NCBI GenBank assembly: GCA_018241185.1
Contig: JAFEEH010000206.1
Span: 1 to 39,010 of the forward strand
Direction: 5' to 3'
Origin: Pseudomonadota bacterium
GTDB taxonomy: Bacteria > Pseudomonadota > Gammaproteobacteria > Burkholderiales > Burkholderiaceae_C
Length of the DNA: 39,010 nucleotides
The position numbers and the translations under genes were made by a program. Under the pieces are notes generated by a model, which saw only the letters and a list, made by a program, of their open reading frames with translations, had not been told where the DNA came from and did not search any database. The first letter of the stretch is position 1. Every line of letters begins with the position of its first letter. Shown one piece after another: positions 6,054 through 29,331 of this stretch.

Positions 6054-6443
6054 ATGCAGGGCCTGCACCTCACCGCCGACCTCCACGACTGCCAGTGCCA
6101 GCCGCACTGGTTCGTCGATGCCGAGGCGCTCGGCGCCCGCTGCGTGGCCGCGGTGCGCCACGCGGGCCTGCAGTCCGTGGGCCAGCTCTTCCATCGCTTT
6201 CCCGACACGGCCGAGGGCCCGGGCGGCGTGACGGCGACGGTGCTGCTGGCCGAGTCGCACCTGTGCGTGCATACCTGGCCGGAGCGCCGCGCCGTGACGC
6301 TGGACGTCTACGTGTGCAACTTCGGCGGCGACCATTCCGACAAGGCGCGCCAGTTGCTCGATGCGCTGGTGGCGCTGTTCGCACCGCGCGAGGCGGTGCG
6401 CCAGTCCCTGCAGCGCGGCCGGGCCCCTGCGCATGCCGACTGA
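6054..6443 (+). CDS. speH: S-adenosylmethionine decarboxylase proenzyme (class 1B, SpeH type)
   Basis: 129 residues, the length of the small pyruvoyl-dependent AdoMet decarboxylases. It makes decarboxylated AdoMet, the aminopropyl donor for spermidine synthesis. The self-cleavage site is Glu67-Ser68 in LLAESHLCVHTWPE, where Ser68 would become the pyruvoyl group. His73 and Cys88 match Ser63/His68/Cys83 of the Thermotoga enzyme with a constant offset of five. The ATG at 6054 starts the conserved LHLTADLHDC; no Shine-Dalgarno is seen but a TAGAGT hexamer lies seven bases upstream. It overlaps the next gene by 11 bp. A candidate partner enzyme, an aminopropyltransferase homologue, lies at 21.1-22.7 kb. 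Confidence 0.92.
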   Translation: MQGLHLTADLHDCQCQPHWFVDAEALGARCVAAVRHAGLQSVGQLFHRFPDTAEGPGGVTATVLLAESHLCVHTWPERRAVTLDVYVCNFGGDHSDKARQLLDALVALFAPREAVRQSLQRGRAPAHAD

Positions 6444-7179
6444 AGGCGTGCGCGCCGGCGCCATGCTGCTGGCCGCCGGCCGCGGCGAGCGCATGCGGCC
6501 GTTGACCGACCACACACCCAAGCCGCTGCTGCCGGTATGCGGCAAACCGCTGATGCAGTGGCCCATGGAAGCGATGGCGGCCGGCGGCGTCACGCGGCTG
6601 GTGGTCAACACGGCCTGGCTGGGCGAGCAGATTTCGAGCCATTTCGGCCCGCAGGCCGCATGGGGCGGGCGCGAGGCGCTATCAATTTCATACTCAGACG
6701 AAGGCCGTGACTTCGGCGGCGCACTGGAGACGGCCGGCGGCATCGTGCGGGCCCTGCCCCTGCTCGACGAGGTGTTCTGGGTGGCGGCCGGCGACGTGTT
6801 CGCGCCTGACTTTCGCTTCGCGCCCGAGGCGCTGGCGCGCTTCCGTGCCGGCGACGCGCTGGCCCACCTGTGGCTGGTGCCCAATCCTGCGCACAACCCG
6901 AAGGGCGACTTCGGCCTGGGCGAGGATGGCCGCGCGCGCAACGTGCCGGCCGATGCCGGCGTGCCGCGCCACACCTTCTCGACCATCGGCCTGTACCGCG
7001 CCGCGCTGTTCGCGCCGCCCTACTGCAGCATTCCGTCCGGCAACCCGGAGGGCGTCAAGGCGGCGCTGGCGCCGATCCTGCGGGCCGCCATGGACGACGG
7101 TCGCGTCACGGCCGAGCTTTACACGGGCGGCTGGACGGACGTCGGTACGCCGGAGCGACTGGCGCAGCTCCAGCGCTGA
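6433..7179 (+). CDS. murU: MurU-like nucleotidyltransferase (N-acetylmuramate-1-phosphate uridylyltransferase)
   Basis: 248 residues. The N-terminus has the sugar-nucleotidyltransferase signature AMLLAAGRGERMRPLT followed by PKPLLPVCGKPL. The order of later motifs (NTAWLGEQI, LETAGGI, GDVFAPDF, NPKGDFGL, FSTIGLY, GGWTDVGTPERL) follows Pseudomonas MurU closely. MurU turns MurNAc-1-phosphate plus UTP into UDP-MurNAc in peptidoglycan recycling. Its usual partner AmgK is encoded at 34.7 kb, not next door. The start at 6433 overlaps speH by 11 bp; ATG 6463 is an alternative. Residues ~78-86 are encoded by what looks like half of the dispersed repeat. A related hexose-phosphate nucleotidyltransferase cannot be excluded. 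Confidence 0.75.
   Translation: MPTEGVRAGAMLLAAGRGERMRPLTDHTPKPLLPVCGKPLMQWPMEAMAAGGVTRLVVNTAWLGEQISSHFGPQAAWGGREALSISYSDEGRDFGGALETAGGIVRALPLLDEVFWVAAGDVFAPDFRFAPEALARFRAGDALAHLWLVPNPAHNPKGDFGLGEDGRARNVPADAGVPRHTFSTIGLYRAALFAPPYCSIPSGNPEGVKAALAPILRAAMDDGRVTAELYTGGWTDVGTPERLAQLQR
6665..6692 (-). repeat. Fragment of dispersed two-hairpin repeat inside murU (copy F)
   Basis: The 28 bases match the GCGGGCGCGAG(C)CGCTATC...CATA half of the copy at 24629-24655 with few differences, including a GCTAT...ATA half-hairpin. They are read in frame by murU (GGREALSISY). The match is short, so chance or convergence remains possible. Confidence 0.4.
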
Positions 7180-19399: not shown

Positions 19400-19460
19400 G
19401 CTCTTTTTTTTTAATAGCCATTCGCGCCCATGGGACGGGCGCAAACGGCCGATTCGGCTC
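19400..19460 (+). repeat. Dispersed two-hairpin repeat, copy B
   Basis: A diverged copy lies between two convergent genes. It has an AATAGCC stretch, the strong hairpin GCGCCC...GGGCGC, and a CCGATTCGGCT tail. A run of nine Ts precedes it on the plus strand. It may work as the terminator for the convergent pair. Confidence 0.65.
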
Positions 19461-19468
19461 GCAATCTC

Positions 19469-21106
19469 TCAGGCCACCGAGCCCGCGAGATGCCCGCGCG
19501 TGAAGGCTTCCTCGAAGATGGAGTAGCCGGCCCAATCGGCATGCGCGAACTGCAGCCGCCCGTGGCTGCGCACGATTTGCTCCTGATTTGATAGCTGCCC
19601 GCGCCCACTGGACGGGCGTTGCAGCCCGATTTGGCTTAGAAGTCCGGGCGTCGGGATGGCCATCGCATGGCCGTAGCGCGTGATGTCGATGCGCGTCGCC
19701 AGCTCGCGCAGGTCGGGATGCGGCACCGACAGCTCGGCCAGAAGCTCGTCGCGCCACGCGCTCCATGGCGCATCGAGCAGGCGGCGGCGGCCTTCGGCGG
19801 CCGTGGCGCCATCGAAGCCGCTGGGCCCGAGCGGCCGGTACCAGCTCAGCACGGTGGCGCGCGGCGTCGGGTCCAGCGTTTGGTGGCGTGCGTCGACATA
19901 GCCCAGCCCGCGCGTGCCGTAGACCACGTTGTCCCAGCTCGGCGCTGCACCGGGCCGGTCCTGCAGCGGGCCGCGCAGATGCATGTTGGCGACCAGCCAG
20001 GGCGCGTACTGCAAATGCGCCGCGGCCTGGCGCAGAAAGGCGGGCGGACCCTCGACCACGCGCGCGGCAATGAATGCCGGCAGCGCGACGATGCAGCGCT
20101 CGGCCTCCCAGCGCACCACGCGGCGCGTCGCGGCGTCCCACGCATCGACCTCGACACCATGCCGCACGTCGGCGACGCGCAGCACCACATGGCCCGCGCG
20201 CAGCCGGTCGCCCAGCGGCGCGGCCAGCCGCTGCGTGAGCCAGCCGTTGCCCTCGGGCCAGGTCAGCACGGCCTCGCGCTCGCCGTCGCCGCTGTCGTCG
20301 CCCGGTGGATGGAAACCGTGGCGGCTCGCGAAGTAGTGGATGCCGGCCCAGGCCGACACATGGGCGGTGCCGGCGCCGTAGTCGTCGCGACAGCAGTAGT
20401 CGAGGTACCAGCGCAGTTGCGGGTCGCTGAGGCCCTCGCGGTCCAGCCAGGTGGCGAAGGGCTCGGCGTCGAGCGCCAGCACCGTGGGCGTGAGCGGCGC
20501 GCGGAAGGCGGGGATGGTGAAGTGCGCCTCGCGCTGCAGCGCGTCCACGCGGCGTGCGAAGCGCTGGTACTGCGCCAGCGTGTCGGCGCCCACGCCGTGC
20601 AGCGGCAGCAGGCCGTCCTGCCACTCGCCGCGGAAGAACAGGCGCTCCTGCGGGCTGTGGCACAGGTGGCGCTCGTCGTATTCCCAGCGGCCCGCAACGC
20701 GCCGGCGCAGGCCCAGTTCCTCGAGCAGGTCCTGCACCTCGTGCGCGTGGTCGCCAGGGACCGGCAGGTAGTGCGCGCCGAGCGGGCAGGCGATGCCGTG
20801 CACGCGGCCGCCGCGCGCGTTGCCGCCGGCCCCGTCCTCGAGTTCGAGCAGCACGAAATCCTCGATGCCCGCCAGGCGCAGCGCGCGCGCCGCCGCCAGT
20901 CCGGCCACGCCGCCGCCGGCGATCACCACCCGCGTGCGCCGCGTCTCGGCCGGCGCCGCGCCGCGTCCGGCGCCGTCGCGCCAGGCATGGCCGCGCGCGA
21001 CGTCGATGCCGGTGAAGCCGCCGTCGATGGTCGGGCTCGACTCGCAGCCGGCCAGCGCCAGCGCGCCGGCGGAGGCGCCGATGAAATCGCGGCGGCGGAG
21101 GGTCAT
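19469..21106 (-). CDS. Tat-exported FAD-dependent amine-oxidase-like lipoprotein
   Basis: 545 residues. The N-terminus combines a twin-arginine motif (RRRDFIG) with a lipobox ALAGC (Cys21), so it is probably exported folded with FAD and anchored by lipid. The Rossmann motif GGGVAG is at 64-69, followed by ELEDGAGGNARGG, as in NAD(P)-binding flavin amine oxidases or protoporphyrinogen-oxidase-like proteins. The C-terminal FAD-contact motif FAHADWAGYSIFEEAF is intact. Residues ~489-510 are encoded by repeat copy C and look inserted. It starts seven bases after the stop of the aminopropyltransferase homologue and is the last gene of the SPFH cluster. Oxidation of a polyamine-type substrate is a guess from context. 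Confidence 0.8.
   Translation of the reverse strand: MTLRRRDFIGASAGALALAGCESSPTIDGGFTGIDVARGHAWRDGAGRGAAPAETRRTRVVIAGGGVAGLAAARALRLAGIEDFVLLELEDGAGGNARGGRVHGIACPLGAHYLPVPGDHAHEVQDLLEELGLRRRVAGRWEYDERHLCHSPQERLFFRGEWQDGLLPLHGVGADTLAQYQRFARRVDALQREAHFTIPAFRAPLTPTVLALDAEPFATWLDREGLSDPQLRWYLDYCCRDDYGAGTAHVSAWAGIHYFASRHGFHPPGDDSGDGEREAVLTWPEGNGWLTQRLAAPLGDRLRAGHVVLRVADVRHGVEVDAWDAATRRVVRWEAERCIVALPAFIAARVVEGPPAFLRQAAAHLQYAPWLVANMHLRGPLQDRPGAAPSWDNVVYGTRGLGYVDARHQTLDPTPRATVLSWYRPLGPSGFDGATAAEGRRRLLDAPWSAWRDELLAELSVPHPDLRELATRIDITRYGHAMAIPTPGLLSQIGLQRPSSGRGQLSNQEQIVRSHGRLQFAHADWAGYSIFEEAFTRGHLAGSVA
19579..19637 (+). repeat. Dispersed two-hairpin repeat, copy C, inside a coding sequence
   Basis: Nearly complete copy: GATTTGATAGCTGCC, the hairpin CGCCC...GGGCG, then TTGCAGCCCGATTTGGCTT. 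It lies wholly inside the FAD oxidoreductase gene and is read through in frame as about 22 residues between TPG and IVRSHGRLQFAH. Confidence 0.75.
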
Positions 21107-21113
21107 GGCGCGC

Positions 21114-22697
21114 TCAATGCGTGACCCCGACCTTGCCCCATTCCTGCTCGTAGGTCGTGACCAGCACCTGGTTCGACAGGCGGTTGACCTCGGCCGGCAC
21201 GCGCGCCATGTCCTTGGGGAAGTCGAAGAGCAGGGGCAGCGTGTCGGCCGTGAGGAAGCGCAGGCCCGCAGGCAGCGCGTCGGGACGGCGCCAGGGGCGG
21301 TGGCTGGCGATGACGTAGCCCCACTCGCCGAAGCTCGGCACGTGCGCGTGGTAGGGCGTGGCGACCAGGCCCACCGATTCGATGGTCTGCGCCACCGTCC
21401 AGTAACTCTTGCGCGCCACCAGCGGCGAGGTGGTCTGGATCACCGCGTAGCCGCTCGCGGCCAGACGGCGGTCCAGCAGCGCGTAGAAGCTGTTGGTGTA
21501 GAGCTTGCCGATGGCGAAGTTGGTCGGGTCCGGGAAGTCGACGACCACCACGTCGAAGGTGTCATCCCCCTCCTGCAGCCACTTGAAGGCATCGGTGTTG
21601 AGGATCTTCACCTTGGGCGACGAGAGCGAATGCCCGTTGAGCGCGGCCAGGGTCTCGTGATCGGTGAAGAGCCGAGTCATGTTCGGGTCGAGCTCGACCA
21701 GCGTGACCGACTCGACCGAGGGGTACTTCAGGATTTCGCGCACCGCCATGCCGTCGCCGCCGCCGAGCACGGCCACCTTCCTGGGTGCGCCGTGGGCCGC
21801 CATCACGGGGTGCACCAGCGCCTCGTGGTAGCGGTACTCGTCGCGTTCGGCGAACTGCAGGTTGCCGTTGAGGAACAGCCGGTGCCCGGCACCGCCGCGC
21901 GTGACGACGATGCGCTGGTAGGGCGAGGTGGCCGCGAAGACGATGCGGTCCTGGTAGAAGCGGTCTTCGGCCAGCGTGGTGATGCGCTCGGCGAAGGCGA
22001 AGGCGGCGGCCAGCGCGGCCAGCGTCAGGGCACAGGCGATCGCATGCGCGCCGAAGCGCCTTAGCTCGTGCCGGAACAGCCACAGCGCCCAGGCGCCCAC
22101 GGCCGCGTTCATGAGCCCGAAGAGCAGCCCGGTGCGGATCATGCCCAGCTGCGGCACCAACAGCAGCGGAAAGGCCACCGACACCGCCAGCGCGCCGAGG
22201 TAGTCGAAGGTCAGCACCTGCGAGACCAGGTCCTTGAGCACGATGTCGCGCCGCAGGATGCGCATGACCAGCGGGATCTCCAGCCCGACCAGCGTGCCCA
22301 CCACGACCACCAGCCCGTACAGCAGCAGCCGGAAGGCACCCGGCACATAGGCGTTGGCGATGAACAGCAGCGCCGGCAGGAAGCCGCCGACGAGCGCGAC
22401 CATGAGCTCAATGCGCAGGAAGTGCGCGGGCAGCTGGCGCTCGAAGTAGCGCGAGAGCCACGAGCCCACGCCCATGGCGAACAAGTAGGTGCCGATGATG
22501 GTGCTGAACTGCAGCACCGAGTCGCCGAGCAGGTAGGAGCTCAGCGCCGCCGCACTCAGTTCGTAGACCAGGCCGCAGGCGGCGACGACGAAGACGCTGG
22601 CGAGCAGGGCGATGGCGACGGGAGACGGGCCGGCGCGGCGGGCGGGTGCAGCGGGCAGCGCGGCCGCATCGATCGGCGGCGCGAGGGGTTCGTTCAT
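21114..22697 (-). CDS. Membrane-anchored spermidine synthase-like aminopropyltransferase
   Basis: 527 residues. Residues ~28-235 form about seven hydrophobic helices; the C-terminal half is a spermidine synthase-type fold. Seen there: YHEALVHPVM (290-299), the AdoMet-binding VLGGGDGMAVREIL (GGGDG 312-316), acidic VELDP (334-338), and FDVVVVDFPDP with Asp387 and Asp390 where the catalytic aspartates of the family sit. The family moves an aminopropyl group from decarboxylated AdoMet to an amine; membrane versions are poorly characterised. ATG 22697 was preferred over 22715 because a GAGG lies eight bases upstream. Cluster partners are the DUF350 gene upstream and the FAD gene downstream. Confidence 0.82.
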   Translation of the reverse strand: MNEPLAPPIDAAALPAAPARRAGPSPVAIALLASVFVVAACGLVYELSAAALSSYLLGDSVLQFSTIIGTYLFAMGVGSWLSRYFERQLPAHFLRIELMVALVGGFLPALLFIANAYVPGAFRLLLYGLVVVVGTLVGLEIPLVMRILRRDIVLKDLVSQVLTFDYLGALAVSVAFPLLLVPQLGMIRTGLLFGLMNAAVGAWALWLFRHELRRFGAHAIACALTLAALAAAFAFAERITTLAEDRFYQDRIVFAATSPYQRIVVTRGGAGHRLFLNGNLQFAERDEYRYHEALVHPVMAAHGAPRKVAVLGGGDGMAVREILKYPSVESVTLVELDPNMTRLFTDHETLAALNGHSLSSPKVKILNTDAFKWLQEGDDTFDVVVVDFPDPTNFAIGKLYTNSFYALLDRRLAASGYAVIQTTSPLVARKSYWTVAQTIESVGLVATPYHAHVPSFGEWGYVIASHRPWRRPDALPAGLRFLTADTLPLLFDFPKDMARVPAEVNRLSNQVLVTTYEQEWGKVGVTH

Positions 22698-22800
22698 GGC
22701 AAGGGCCTCGACCATTCGAGCCGGGCCTGTGGGCGCCGTTGCGGCGGCGCTCCGACGGCCTCAGCGTGAACGGTGGCGGGGCGACTGGCGCCGTGCGCCG

Positions 22801-23022
22801 TCAATGGATCGCTGCGGCGACGATGATGCTGATGCCCAGGCACATGGCGGCCACCACCATGGCCAGCGCCTTGTTGTGCTTCTCGACGATCTCGCCCCAC
22901 AGGTCGTAGGGCGTGATCTTGTCGATAACGATGAAGGCGATCCAGAAGATCGCGACACCGATCAGCGCATACAGCAGGGTGCCCAGGATCGCCATCGGCT
23001 GGAGCCATTCGATTTTCGGCAT
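22801..23022 (-). CDS. DUF350 family small membrane protein
   Basis: 73 residues with two hydrophobic helices (~10-33 and ~50-72) separated by a charged loop (DKITPYDLWGEIVEKHNKA), the pattern of single-repeat DUF350 proteins such as those near E. coli YjfL. A GGAGAG ribosome site lies before ATG 23022. It sits between the DUF4178 gene and the aminopropyltransferase gene, a neighbourhood I recall as recurrent for this family in proteobacteria. Biochemical role unknown. Confidence 0.85.
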   Translation of the reverse strand: MPKIEWLQPMAILGTLLYALIGVAIFWIAFIVIDKITPYDLWGEIVEKHNKALAMVVAAMCLGISIIVAAAIH

Positions 23023-23064
23023 GCGGTCTCTCCGTTAGAAGGTTTTGGGGTGTGCGCGGGTTCG

Positions 23065-24567
23065 TTACTTGTGGCCGCCGCCGCTCGAGTAGCCGCCGTA
23101 GGAGCCGCCCGAGCTTCGGTAGCCGCTGCCCGAGGAGCTCGAGCAGGTGGACAGGATGATCAGCAGGATGATGATCACCACGACGATGAGGATGATCGTG
23201 CCGCAGCCCAGGCTCGACGCGGCACTGACGGGCAGCGCATCGGTGCGCTTGAACATGTCCTTCTTCGCATCGAGCTTGAAGGCCGACGCCACGGCGTTGC
23301 TGTCGATGCGGCTGCCGTAGGACCAGGTGAGCTCGTTGGCGCTGCGCTCCATCGACAGCAGGCCGCCCTTGGGTTCGCCGTAGTCGCGGTTCTGCGTCTT
23401 CTGGCCGCGCTGCACCTGCCAGTAGAACTCGCCGGCGACGTAGGTGGTCTCGGCCTCGTAGGCGTACTTCTGCCGGTAGACGCGGCCGAGGTAGCGCGCG
23501 GTCTGGCCGCCGTCGGACACCACCGGCGCACCGGTCGCGGGCTTGACCATGCTCCAGCCGTCGCTCGCGTCGACCAGGAAGCTGAAGCCGCGCTTCCTGT
23601 TGTAGAGCAGGTACTCGTCCCAGCCGAAGTGCTCGTCGTCGCCGGGCTCCATGCCCATGCGGTGCTGGAAGCCCACCACCTGCCACTGCGCACCCTGCAG
23701 CGTGCCGAGCGTGCCCAGCGCGATGAGCGGCTGCACCGGCTCGTTCTGCGTGGCGTACTTCAGCTCGCCGCCGATGCCGGCGCTGGTGTCGATGATGCTC
23801 TTGCACGACGGGCAGGTGATGCTCTTGCTGTCGGCGAAATTGAGCGTGACCGGCGAGCCGCAGTTCGGACAGGCGAAGCTGCGGCCCTTCTCCTCCTTGG
23901 CCGATTCTTCGCGCAGCCCGGCCATCTTGAGGTCATCGAGCTCGACCGAGCGGCCCAGGTAGGCCGTGGGCGGCGCCGAGTCGTAGTCCAGGCTCAGGAC
24001 CAGGCCCTTCTCGTTGCGCAGCTCGACGACGCGGAAGGGCTTGCCGAGCTCGGGCAGGCGCGGGAGTTCGCCCTGGGCCGACAGCAGCTTCACTTCCTCG
24101 TTGGACGCGACGGTGTAGCCCTGCCCGTTGAAGGTGTGGGTGGCGCCCACGCGCAGCTGGTCGGCGGCCGGCGCGGGCTGCTGCAGCGCGTAGGGCAGCG
24201 AGAAGACGTAGGCGCCGTTGTCCTCGCTCAGGACGCCGGTGCGGTCGTCGGTGCCGTCGATCTGGGCGACCCATTCGGTCCAGCGGCCACCTTCGTAGGC
24301 GTACTGCAGGCGGCCGACGAGCGTGAAGGCCTTGTCCTGGATGCGGCCGGTGGCAAAGAGCTGCAGTGGGCTGAAGTCGTCGAACAGCTCGGCCATCTTG
24401 CCGATGCGCGCGAGCTGCTCGCCCTGGCGCACGACGGTGCTCTGGCAGTAGGGGCAGACGGCGAAGGCCGACTGCGCCGAGCGGAACTCGACCGGCGCGC
24501 CGCAGCCGGGGCAGGGGGCGCTGTACGTGCGCTGGGGAGACGGCGGGGCGCCGCCCGGCTCAGCCAT
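23065..24567 (-). CDS. Double zinc-ribbon, DUF4178 domain membrane protein
   Basis: 500 residues. Two CxxC...CxxC ribbons are clear: Cys19/22 with 38/41 (CPGCGAPVEF...CPYC) and Cys233/236 with 252/255 (CPNCGSPV...CPSC). Each is followed by a DUF4178-like beta domain; the second contains FGWDEYLLYNRKRGFSFLV and FYWQVQRGQ. A strongly hydrophobic helix at ~455-473 leads to a short Ser/Gly/Tyr-rich, His-ending tail. Most of the protein should face the cytoplasm. ATG 24567 was chosen over TTG 24573. It lies downstream of the SPFH gene, separated by 101 bp that hold repeat copy D. Confidence 0.85.
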   Translation of the reverse strand: MAEPGGAPPSPQRTYSAPCPGCGAPVEFRSAQSAFAVCPYCQSTVVRQGEQLARIGKMAELFDDFSPLQLFATGRIQDKAFTLVGRLQYAYEGGRWTEWVAQIDGTDDRTGVLSEDNGAYVFSLPYALQQPAPAADQLRVGATHTFNGQGYTVASNEEVKLLSAQGELPRLPELGKPFRVVELRNEKGLVLSLDYDSAPPTAYLGRSVELDDLKMAGLREESAKEEKGRSFACPNCGSPVTLNFADSKSITCPSCKSIIDTSAGIGGELKYATQNEPVQPLIALGTLGTLQGAQWQVVGFQHRMGMEPGDDEHFGWDEYLLYNRKRGFSFLVDASDGWSMVKPATGAPVVSDGGQTARYLGRVYRQKYAYEAETTYVAGEFYWQVQRGQKTQNRDYGEPKGGLLSMERSANELTWSYGSRIDSNAVASAFKLDAKKDMFKRTDALPVSAASSLGCGTIILIVVVIIILLIILSTCSSSSGSGYRSSGGSYGGYSSGGGHK

Positions 24568-24604
24568 GGGCAACGCACGCCGGCACGCGCCGGCGTTTCA
24601 AGCG

Positions 24605-24658
24605 TTTTGAGGCCGCAGCGCCCGTCCCGCGGGCGCGAGCCGCTATCGAAAACATAGC
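24605..24658 (-). repeat. Dispersed two-hairpin repeat, copy D
   Basis: Reverse-oriented copy with a perfect GCGCCCG/CGGGCGC stem and a GCTATC...ATAGC hairpin. It lies between the SPFH gene and the DUF4178 gene of the same operon, 10 bp after the SPFH stop, where it could act as attenuator or mRNA processing site. Confidence 0.75.
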
Positions 24659-24668
24659 AGTCTGCGAC

Positions 24669-25718
24669 TCAGACGAGCTTCTTGAGCAGCTCGGCCTTCT
24701 TGGCGTCGAACTCTTCCTGCGTGAGGATGCCCTTGGTCTTGAGCTCGCCCAGCTTCTCGAGCGTGGCCATGACCTCGTTCGGGCTCACGGTGGCGGCCGG
24801 CGCGGTGGCGGCGACGGCGGCCTGCGCGGCGGCGTTGGGATGGAGGCCCTGCTGCAGGTTCTGCGCCAGCACCTGGCCCAGCGCCACGCCGGCGCCCAGG
24901 CCCATCGCGTCGCCCGCGATGCCACCACCGCCGTTGCCCGAGCCTTCGGCGAACTTGGGGATCGCCTGCGCCGTCTGGTACTGCATGAACTTGCCCATGT
25001 CGTTGCCGACCATGCCCATGCCGATCTTCTGGTCGAGGATCTTCTGCAGCTCTTCGGGCAGCGACACGTTCTGGACGGTGATCGTCTCGAGCTTGATGCC
25101 GATCTTGGCGAACTCGGGGTTCAGCTGCGCCGCCAGCGCCTTGGCGAACTCGATCTGGTTGGCCGCCAGGTCGAGGAAGGGCACGCCGCTGGCCGCGATG
25201 GCGGTGCTGATGTTCTGCAACACCAGGCCACGCAACTGGCCGTCGAGGTCGGCCACGGTGTAGGTGTCGCGCGTGCCCGAGATCTCGGTGTGGAAGAGCT
25301 TGGGGTCGGCGATGCGGAAGGCGTAGTTGCCGAAGGCACGCAACCGCACGGCGCCGAAGTCCTTGTCGCGGATGGTGATGGGCTGCGGCGTGCCCCACTT
25401 CTGGTCGACCTGCTGGCGCGTGCTGAAGAAGTAGACGTCGCTCTTGAAGGGCGACTCGAAGAGCTTGTCCCAGTTCTTGAGGTACGTGAGGACGGGCAGC
25501 GTCTGCGTCGTCAGCTTGTACATGCCGGGGCCGAAGACGTCGGCCACCTGGCCTTCGTTGACGAAGACGGCCATCTGCGACTCGCGCACGGTGAGCGAGG
25601 CGCCGTTCTGGATCTCCATCTCCTGCATGGGGAAGCGCCAGGCGAGCGTGCCGTCGCCGGTTTCCGTCCACTGGATGATGTCGATGAACTGCTTCTTGAT
25701 GAAATCCATCAGGGCCAT
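24669..25718 (-). CDS. SPFH/Band 7 domain protein with C-terminal SHOCT motif
   Basis: 349 residues. It resembles the YdjI-type soluble SPFH proteins: MDFIKKQFIDIIQW at the start, a band-7 core from ~20 to 220 (RESQMAVFVNEGQVADVFGPG, ISGTRDTYTVADLDGQL), an Ala/Gly-rich hinge and a SHOCT-like end (LGELKTKGILTQEEFDAKKAE). Such proteins oligomerise and organise membrane stress machinery; in Bacillus a YdjI/zinc-ribbon pair is part of an envelope stress operon. An AGGAG seven bases before ATG 25718 fixes the start, rather than GTG 25724. It is the first gene of a five-gene minus-strand cluster, with a palindrome 30 bp upstream. Confidence 0.88.
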   Translation of the reverse strand: MALMDFIKKQFIDIIQWTETGDGTLAWRFPMQEMEIQNGASLTVRESQMAVFVNEGQVADVFGPGMYKLTTQTLPVLTYLKNWDKLFESPFKSDVYFFSTRQQVDQKWGTPQPITIRDKDFGAVRLRAFGNYAFRIADPKLFHTEISGTRDTYTVADLDGQLRGLVLQNISTAIAASGVPFLDLAANQIEFAKALAAQLNPEFAKIGIKLETITVQNVSLPEELQKILDQKIGMGMVGNDMGKFMQYQTAQAIPKFAEGSGNGGGGIAGDAMGLGAGVALGQVLAQNLQQGLHPNAAAQAAVAATAPAATVSPNEVMATLEKLGELKTKGILTQEEFDAKKAELLKKLV

Positions 25719-28438: not shown

Positions 28439-28852
28439 ATGGCGTTTGCCGCCTCGATCTCGTCCAAAGTCTCCAAGTTTGCGCTCACTGGCGTTTTCGT
28501 GGTGGCCCTCGGCGGGGTTCTGGCGCCGAGCCAGTCCGTCCAAGCCAGGGAATTCCCGGCCCGGGACGAGACGATCGCGCTGTCGCAATTGCCTCTCCAG
28601 GGTCAGACAACGTACCGCGCGATCTTCGAAGGCGGCCCGTTCCGGCATGACAAGGACGGCACCGTGTTCGGCAATCGGGAGCGTCTGCTTCCGCGCGAGC
28701 GGCGTGGGCACTACCGCGAATACACCGTGGACACGCCCGGTGCTCGCACGCGCGGCGCCCGTCGCATCGTGTGCGGCGGCCCGCCGACGACGCCGAAGGC
28801 GTGCTGGTACACGGCGGACCATTACGCAAGTTTCAGGAAGATCGTGCCGTGA
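28439..28852 (+). CDS. Secreted barnase-like ribonuclease (N1/T1 superfamily)
   Basis: 137 residues. A signal peptide ends near SVQA-R (36/37); the ~100-residue mature part is a microbial guanyl-specific RNase fold. Catalytic candidates: Glu94 (HYREYTV), Arg108/Arg109 (GARRIVCGG) and His128 (YTADHYASFRKI), corresponding to barnase Glu73, Arg87 and His102, with a longer loop before the His. Two cysteines (112, 122) may form a disulfide in that loop. It would cut RNA outside the cytoplasm or in competitor cells. The barstar-type inhibitor gene follows, giving protection against any enzyme left inside. Confidence 0.85.
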   Translation: MAFAASISSKVSKFALTGVFVVALGGVLAPSQSVQAREFPARDETIALSQLPLQGQTTYRAIFEGGPFRHDKDGTVFGNRERLLPRERRGHYREYTVDTPGARTRGARRIVCGGPPTTPKACWYTADHYASFRKIVP

Positions 28853-28911
28853 CGGACGATCGCACAGGCAGGGGTGACGCACCCACGCGTTCGGGAGAAG
28901 TTTTGATCACC

Positions 28912-29331
28912 ATGGAAAGAACAGCGGAGATGAATCAGTCCCTTCGTGGCGTTCGGCCCAACATCGTTCAGTCGATCCGGGCCTTTCGCGTCAGCGACCT
29001 TCAAGAGGCGGCCCACGCGTCGGGCCAGCACTTCCTCTATGCCAACCTGGCGAATGCCCAGAGCAAGCAGGACGTGCTCGACCTGATCGCGCAGCAGTTC
29101 ACCTTCCCGGCGCACTTCGGCAAGAACTTCGATGCGCTGTACGACTGCATGACCGATCCCTTGCACAAATCGGGCCCGCAGCCGGGCTTCGTCGTGGTGC
29201 TGGAGCAGATCCCGGCCAATGCCAAGTTCGACAAGGAAGCGCGCGAGCAGCTCCTGGACATCTTCCGCGACGCCTCGGATTACTGGGGCGACCGCAAGGT
29301 GCCCTTCAGGTGCTTCTATTCTTTTCTGTAG
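28912..29331 (+). CDS. Barstar-family ribonuclease inhibitor
   Basis: 139 residues. The barstar domain covers ~25-135: LYANLANAQSKQDVLDLIAQQFTFP, then FGKNFDALYDCMTD, the conserved helix with the acidic residues that plug the RNase active site, and the final strand VPFRCFYSFL. It directly follows the barnase-like gene, so cognate immunity is likely. The start is uncertain: ATG 28912 is listed, but the best-placed Shine-Dalgarno (GGGAG 28893-28897) points to TTG 28903, and ATG 28930 is a third option. The domain is unaffected by the choice. Confidence 0.88.
   Translation: MERTAEMNQSLRGVRPNIVQSIRAFRVSDLQEAAHASGQHFLYANLANAQSKQDVLDLIAQQFTFPAHFGKNFDALYDCMTDPLHKSGPQPGFVVVLEQIPANAKFDKEAREQLLDIFRDASDYWGDRKVPFRCFYSFL

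Follow-up and report, generated by a model that had tools for sequence, protein, structure and literature searches.

The second major operon group of Ravi et al. (2024; PMC11237479), in the sections of that paper drawn on here, is a CesT/Tir-PspA operon with a seven-transmembrane (7TM) spermidine synthase, DUF350, and DUF4178, and a variant of the third group there carries a band-7 protein with two transmembrane segments and SHOCT, an S-adenosylmethionine (AdoMet) decarboxylase, a polyamine oxidase, and a glutathionylspermidine-synthetase-like ligase. We have analyzed a related cluster in a stretch of 39,010 nucleotides (the window), which is positions 1 to 39,010 of contig JAFEEH010000206.1 of the Burkholderiales assembly GCA_018241185.1. 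Five adjacent genes of the window encode an SPFH/band-7 protein, a DUF4178 protein, a DUF350 protein, a membrane aminopropyltransferase, and a flavoprotein with export signals. The flavoprotein is named here as a partner that tracks the membrane enzyme almost perfectly in one bacterial order, and speD, an AdoMet decarboxylase gene of the window that was absent from the five genes of the first-pass annotation, belongs to the set as its sixth member.

AdoMet decarboxylase occurs together with a membrane-fused spermidine-synthase-like protein, and this pairing is puzzling: the donor, decarboxylated AdoMet (dcAdoMet), is made, and yet, as Li et al. are said to have reported in 2019, no spermidine appears. 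We propose, with even confidence, that the five genes and speD constitute one envelope aminopropyl-transfer and amine-processing unit.

Conservation of the gene set and of its flavoprotein partner

The five genes are retained together in close relatives, among which the window is nearest to Xenophilus (96-97% protein identity). Among 80 related loci of the Comamonadaceae, which are the 80 best out of 552 confirmed, 75 have all five in the same order and on the same strand, which argues that the arrangement is not due to chance. Every gap between matches is <800 bases in 68 of the 75 complete loci, and other genes are inserted in 7. Incomplete loci include two that begin ≤0.7 kb upstream of the enzyme gene (L030 and L078), one that begins only 2.5 kb upstream of it (L077), and one that ends just past it and from whose 10 kb the upstream trio is also absent (L082). 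Of the 80 loci, 22 also contain speD, which is on the opposite strand in each case and lies 2.6 to 8.4 kb past the flavoprotein gene in 21 and upstream in 1; 60 of the 80 loci extend at least 8 kb beyond the flavoprotein gene. One inserted block, between the DUF350 and aminopropyltransferase genes (L068:2698-9959), reads like a type III restriction-modification system with methylase and helicase open reading frames (ORFs). Another, between the aminopropyltransferase and flavoprotein genes (L069:11661-16417), holds what by reading are sensor-kinase-like and response-regulator/HD-like genes.

In a survey of 150 genomes drawn evenly from the order, with the enzyme scored by its own cut-off and the flavoprotein at an E value of ≤1e-20, the membrane enzyme was found in 28 genomes from 14 families. 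The flavoprotein was present in 27 of these 28 genomes and in 0 of the 122 others (Fisher P = 6e-29, relatedness being ignored), and speD was present in 27 of 28 compared with 26 of 122. The flavoprotein gene was ≤160 bases from the enzyme gene in 24 of the 27 genomes and was still kept in the three in which it was not adjacent (on another contig in two and 18 kb away in one), while speD was ≤10 kb from the enzyme gene in 16 of 27. Protein distances of the enzyme and flavoprotein are correlated across 33 genomes (r = 0.916), a value that shared species history alone would also make high. The proposal in the first-pass annotation that these genes are kept together was borne out by this neighborhood survey, and nothing was found in favor of a lack of joint conservation.

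Two forms of the neighborhood were seen, with flavoprotein positions taken from the flavoprotein search since the ORF map missed some flavoprotein genes. One is a single operon (SPFH-DUF4178-DUF350-enzyme-flavoprotein, sometimes with speD last); the other is divergent, with speD, DUF4178, SPFH, and sometimes a weak DUF350 on one strand and the enzyme and flavoprotein on the other. The order enzyme, flavoprotein, speD was found in four genomes of the bacterial order (G216, G256, G291, and G321) and in two more distant ones (G189 and G024). A match to the aminopropyltransferase at G209:C3:81489-82997 has one in-frame TGA.

The phylum sample contained the enzyme above its cut-off in 23 of 199 genomes. 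AdoMet decarboxylase was detected in 21 of the 23 (class 1 in 19 and class 2 in 2 more); class 1 was also detected in 14 of 29 chosen comparators, in which class 2 was not sought. DUF4178 was found in 16 of the 23 enzyme genomes (one below cut-off) and in 0 of the 29 comparators, and the flavoprotein was found in 7 of the 23. Short flavin-binding matches occurred in one more of the 23 and in 2 of the 29 comparators. When neighboring ORFs were scanned in seven flavoprotein-less loci, PspA was found in four (L092, L096, L101, and L105), CesT_Tir_1 in L101, and DUF2170 in L092.

Four of the survey results count against the proposed unit. The core system works without the flavoprotein elsewhere, since the latter is absent from 16 of the 23 phylum enzyme genomes, and AdoMet decarboxylase of class 1 or class 2 was not detected in G037 and G057, which are also among the 23. 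Within the order, genome G327 has the enzyme without flavoprotein or speD (the assembly has 680 contigs, and the enzyme lies on a contig of 3.5 kb), and locus L080 has the other four genes and no flavoprotein in the following 10 kb.

Donor site, acceptor loop, and flavin domain

The C-terminal half of the membrane enzyme (residues about 250 to 527) has a spermidine-synthase fold (AlphaFold mean predicted local distance difference test [pLDDT], 91.2). Comparison with solved structures gave 1uir_A as the best Foldseek match (1.2e-17) and a value of 6.2e-33 in a sequence search; the membrane domain alone gave no match to the PDB by sequence search up to an E value of 5. Residues Q281, D286, E287, GGxDG, D337, D369, D387, and D390, which we take to be the donor-site and catalytic positions of SpeE, are invariant in 29 of 29 aligned membrane enzymes, G313 (27 of 29) being the exception, and D387 and D390 are present in every one of 53. 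At the same positions in 20 soluble SpeE proteins, D315, D337, D369, D387, and D390 are conserved in all 20, D286 in 17, E287 in 13, and Q281 in 10. Retention of these motifs suggests that the domain binds an aminopropyl donor, as the first-pass annotation had supposed.

Compared with soluble SpeE, the window enzyme shares the fold and donor-site motifs but differs in having an added membrane domain, few cysteines, and an altered acceptor loop. The loop is one residue shorter than in SpeE, position 456 is Phe in 53 of 53 membrane enzymes and Tyr in 20 of 20 soluble SpeE proteins, and position 389 is Pro in 29 of 29 and Thr in 18 of 20, respectively. The SpeE Tyr at position 456 is presumably the acceptor-loop residue that contacts the diamine, and its replacement by Phe in every membrane enzyme makes putrescine an unlikely acceptor. 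Judged from sequence, the protein is probably not a putrescine aminopropyltransferase, and a different acceptor is likely. Li et al. reportedly detected no spermidine in bacteria of this kind and failed to complement a speE mutant.

The genome has the gene to make dcAdoMet and one clear enzyme to use it, as speD in the window is the sole PF02675 match of the whole genome and the cluster enzyme is the only spermidine-synthase-domain protein above the Pfam cut-off (a second match has 22.2 bits against a cut-off of 22.9). Class 2 AdoMet decarboxylase (PF01536) had no match in the genome. The aminopropyl donor is very probably dcAdoMet. A diamine is probably also made, since one ornithine/arginine/lysine-type decarboxylase was found in the genome; the betaproteobacterium Ralstonia pickettii is stated to make putrescine and 2-hydroxyputrescine in the part of the source drawn on here (PMC7857480). 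In loci L124 and L109 (genomes G082 and G102), speD is joined to a speE-like domain in a single open frame, of 448 and 410 amino acids, respectively, and in G082 and G171 a fused frame of this kind coexists with the membrane aminopropyltransferase.

The flavoprotein has the fold of an amine oxidase. The first solved structures in a profile search were monoamine oxidase 8p84 (2.3e-14) and putrescine oxidase 2yg6 (2e-13), and its AlphaFold model (mean pLDDT, 85.2) matched 8p84_A (Foldseek, 8.2e-23; target template modeling score, 0.76) and 2yg7_A (1.4e-22; 0.73). Readings as HpnE, protoporphyrinogen oxidase, or phytoene desaturase were rejected, as NCBIfam scores were <30 bits against cut-offs of at least 97 and amine oxidases were nearer by both profile and fold. 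A twin-arginine motif (RRRDFIG) and a lipobox (LAGC) in the window protein predict export. Of 52 aligned rows, which include one false match (L149), 49 show the arginine pair pattern and 46 a pattern resembling a lipobox. The lipobox pattern is missing from L130 and L144, and in L090 and L091, from outside the order, the arginines are kept and the lipobox cysteine is missing.

Other features of the flavoprotein weigh against the proposed amine-processing role. Asn374 aligns with a lysine that we take to be the amine-oxidase active-site lysine near the flavin, and this position is Asn in 48 of 51 proteins; no lysine column of the alignment exceeds 12 of 52. The aromatic residue Y528 varies, being kept in 30 of 51, and no Pfam amine-oxidase model was matched at E values up to 0.1, with only NAD_binding_8 above its cut-off. 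The protein therefore resembles putrescine and monoamine oxidases in its overall fold and its nearest solved sequences but is unlike them in the Asn at the lysine position, the twin-arginine signal and lipobox, and the lack of a Pfam amine-oxidase match, and the catalytic detail is likely to be different. The earlier description of a flavin oxidase that is exported by twin-arginine translocation (Tat) and lipid anchored is thus upheld with respect to lasting partnership, amine-oxidase fold, and export signals, but the usual active-site lysine is missing.

Proposed mechanism and side of the membrane

In the mechanism that we propose, SpeD would make dcAdoMet, and the membrane enzyme would move its aminopropyl group to an acceptor other than putrescine, most likely on the periplasmic face. 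Tentatively, this acceptor may be a lipid or other envelope component, for example, a lipid whose head group bears an amine. On that face, too, the Tat-exported flavoenzyme, a lipoprotein, would then oxidize or otherwise redox-process the new amine, and it is fairly probable that it acts on the product of the membrane enzyme. SPFH, DUF4178, and DUF350 would provide a cytoplasmic and membrane scaffold, with SPFH in the position that PspA and CesT occupy in other bacteria, and dcAdoMet may cross the membrane by way of the helical domain or of DUF350. The full chain, in which dcAdoMet is exported, the periplasmic domain modifies an envelope component, and a lipid-anchored flavoenzyme with a nonstandard active site processes the amine, is a plausible conjecture to which we give somewhat less than even weight.

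Both the distribution of charges and the scarcity of cysteine suggest that the aminopropyl group is probably transferred outside the membrane. Averaged over the family, there are seven hydrophobic segments, of which the second is the weakest, and the window sequence alone has six above threshold, so the approximately seven helices of the first-pass annotation apply to the family average, but only six segments are strong in the window protein. Lys and Arg abound at the N terminus and in loops 2, 4, and 6, they are scarce in loops 1 and 3, and loop 5 holds about one positive charge, at position 188 (Arg in 44 of 53). Assuming seven spans, the charge bias (8.5) favors an outside catalytic domain in all 53 enzymes. 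Residues 160 to 208 were read as two spans because a conserved turn, P182-x-L-G185-x-x-R188, lies between the two hydrophobic parts of a stretch of ∼40 residues and because another tight turn in the AlphaFold model, at residue 118, interrupts the helix assignment by one residue only. The membrane domain is likewise named 7TM by Ravi et al. (2024; PMC11237479) in the sections drawn on here. The catalytic domain is cysteine-free in 37 of 53 enzymes, and the other 16 have one cysteine, all at position 434; in 20 soluble SpeE proteins, cysteine accounts for 76 of 5812 residues, and a single one of these proteins lacks it.

Several points weigh against an outside location and favor, in part, the model of the first-pass annotation, in which an inward-facing enzyme aminopropylates a lipid or an amine from the helical domain and the product is flipped or exported before it meets the flavoprotein. 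dcAdoMet is made in the cytoplasm, so that outside transfer would require its export, and we know of no dcAdoMet transporter. AlphaFold draws residues 154 to 207 as one helix, and a single span here would give six spans and a cytoplasmic domain; assuming six spans, the charge bias favors an inside N terminus, and hence an inside catalytic domain, in 52 of 53 enzymes. Lack of cysteine in itself says little, as the SPFH protein and KsgA of the window, both cytoplasmic types, are also cysteine-free; its weight comes from comparison of the whole family with soluble homologues, in which the catalytic domain is depleted. This depletion, together with the turn that reads as a break between two spans and a charge bias that is larger with seven spans than with six (8.5 versus 4.3), makes the cytoplasmic variant rather unlikely. 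Transfer had thus earlier been placed on the inside, but the charge pattern and cysteine depletion place it, probably, on the side of the flavoprotein; the AlphaFold helix count allows the opposite reading.

Two further explanations were considered. The cluster could serve ordinary polyamine synthesis, with a membrane-tethered spermidine synthase for stress protection and the flavoprotein as an unrelated polyamine catabolic enzyme on the outside, and the name of the NCBIfam family (polyamine aminopropyltransferase), the SpeE-like fold, and the ornithine/arginine/lysine decarboxylase of the genome are all consistent with it. However, the enzyme scores 147.3 bits on the SpeE model TIGR00417, below the cut-off of 249.55, its acceptor loop is shortened and carries Phe in place of Tyr, some genomes (for example, G082, G171, and G322) encode, in addition to the membrane enzyme, a SpeE-like protein of its own or a fusion of SpeD with SpeE, and the near-perfect partnership speaks against an unrelated role for the flavoprotein; we consider this explanation improbable. 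Alternatively, the enzyme and flavoprotein of a stress-scaffold operon could be pseudo-enzyme sensors of dcAdoMet or of the envelope redox state, with SPFH and DUF4178 as effectors. Loss of the flavoprotein lysine, the changed acceptor loop, and the recurrence of PspA or SPFH partners would fit such a role, but invariant D387 and D390, conservation of the other donor-site positions, and the presence of speD in 27 of the 28 enzyme genomes of the order make it very improbable.

If periplasmic-face transfer is true, it would explain orphan pairs of AdoMet decarboxylase and membrane aminopropyltransferase and would be, to our knowledge, the first extracytoplasmic use of an AdoMet-derived donor in polyamine-type chemistry. 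This location narrows the search for the missing acceptor to envelope lipids or other periplasmic amines and, if right, would point to a novel type of envelope modification that is linked to membrane-stress scaffolds of the SPFH and PspA types.

Locus architecture and comparison with described systems

The five adjacent minus-strand genes of the first-pass annotation all lie where it had placed them and have family matches by Pfam or NCBIfam (Table 1).

Table 1. Genes of the proposed set in the window, with predicted product and supporting matches
Product	Positions	Strand	Basis
SpeD, S-adenosylmethionine decarboxylase	6054-6443	+	PF02675, 85.1 bits (cut-off 25) at 6066-6419
Flavoprotein with twin-arginine signal and lipobox (Cys21), amine-oxidase fold	19469-21106	-	NAD_binding_8, 42.8 bits
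Membrane aminopropyltransferase	21114-22697	-	NF002956/PRK03612, 689.8 bits (cut-off 472); PF01564, 126.3
DUF350 membrane protein, 73 amino acids	22801-23022	-	PF03994, 53.3 bits
Double-DUF4178 protein with C-terminal membrane anchor	23065-24567	-	PF13785, 110.2 bits over two stretches; hydropathy 453-471
SPFH/band-7 protein with C-terminal SHOCT	24669-25718	-	PF13421 (Band_7_1), 264.5 bits; PF09851, 34.3 bits

The intergenic gaps of the cluster are 101, 42, 103, and 7 bases, as calculated from the coordinates and the start codons adopted in this analysis; the start of SPFH (25718) was picked by eye, with 25709 and 25724 as alternatives, and the start of speD was deduced from the ORF. A hydropathy scan gave no hydrophobic segment in the SPFH-SHOCT protein and only two in the DUF350 protein. 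By reading, the DUF4178 protein has two zinc-ribbon-like motifs of CxxC pairs, for which Pfam zinc-ribbon models were below their cut-offs. A scan for promoter-like sites (1 found, 0.4 expected) and terminator-like sites (2 found, 3.1 expected) was uninformative. Plus-strand genes of other kinds flank the cluster; they encode a PepSY protein and a fused malic enzyme-phosphotransacetylase. Past the latter there is a ribonuclease gene (PF00545) in the region 28439-29331, and the ORF after it is presumably that of its inhibitor, as it reads like barstar. The 3′ end of speD is overlapped by what, by reading, resembles a sugar nucleotidyltransferase gene (6361-7179), and a similar gene adjoins speD in L055. 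An anti-phage defense function was rejected, as PADLOC gave only a partial mad2 match to the enzyme (residues 298 to 456, 52.4 bits); the flavoprotein scored 18.2 bits, the DUF4178 protein 11.7 bits, and the remaining two proteins had no match.

A short palindromic interspersed repeat of the GCGCCCGT-N5-GGGCGC type is present, with ≤1 mismatch, after the flavoprotein gene (19424-19442), in frame within the flavoprotein coding sequence (19601-19619), and between the SPFH and DUF4178 genes (24618-24636). With ≤2 mismatches there were 11 matches against 6.7 expected, and only copies with ≤1 mismatch are worth noting. The in-frame insert lies in or beside a low-confidence loop of the AlphaFold model (residues 498 to 509), and about half of 28 aligned relatives have a similar in-frame insert.

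The window cluster resembles the second group of Ravi et al. (PMC11237479), as characterized in the sections drawn on here, in combining a 7TM-spermidine-synthase-like protein with DUF350 and DUF4178, and the earlier statement that these genes recur together is in agreement with that published association. Unlike that group, it has SPFH-SHOCT where PspA and CesT stand there, adds a Tat-exported flavoprotein and speD, and has a DUF350 protein of 73 amino acids rather than an eight-helix form. Pfam found neither CesT nor PspA among the five cluster proteins and three neighbors, PspA not having been searched elsewhere in the genome. With the third-group variant, insofar as those sections describe it, the cluster shares the combination, within a single operon, of band-7-SHOCT with AdoMet decarboxylase and a polyamine-oxidase-type enzyme, but the operon there is built around an ATP-grasp ligase, of which there is none among the five window cluster genes, while the window has a 7TM aminopropyltransferase. 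The window cluster thus combines features of both groups.

The system of Li et al. reportedly comprises a fusion of a major facilitator superfamily (MFS) domain with spermidine synthase, together with class 1b or class 2 AdoMet decarboxylase and DUF350. It is reported to be like the present one in enzyme architecture, in AdoMet decarboxylase of either class, and in the DUF350 neighbor; SPFH and flavoprotein partners and an outside location are said not to be described there. No description of the chemistry was found in open-licence literature, in line with the first-pass annotation, nor did that literature yield a description of an outside location or of a partnership between flavoprotein and 7TM enzyme. 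In comparison with these systems, the core cluster is already known, and the tie to the flavoprotein and the proposed outside chemistry look new.

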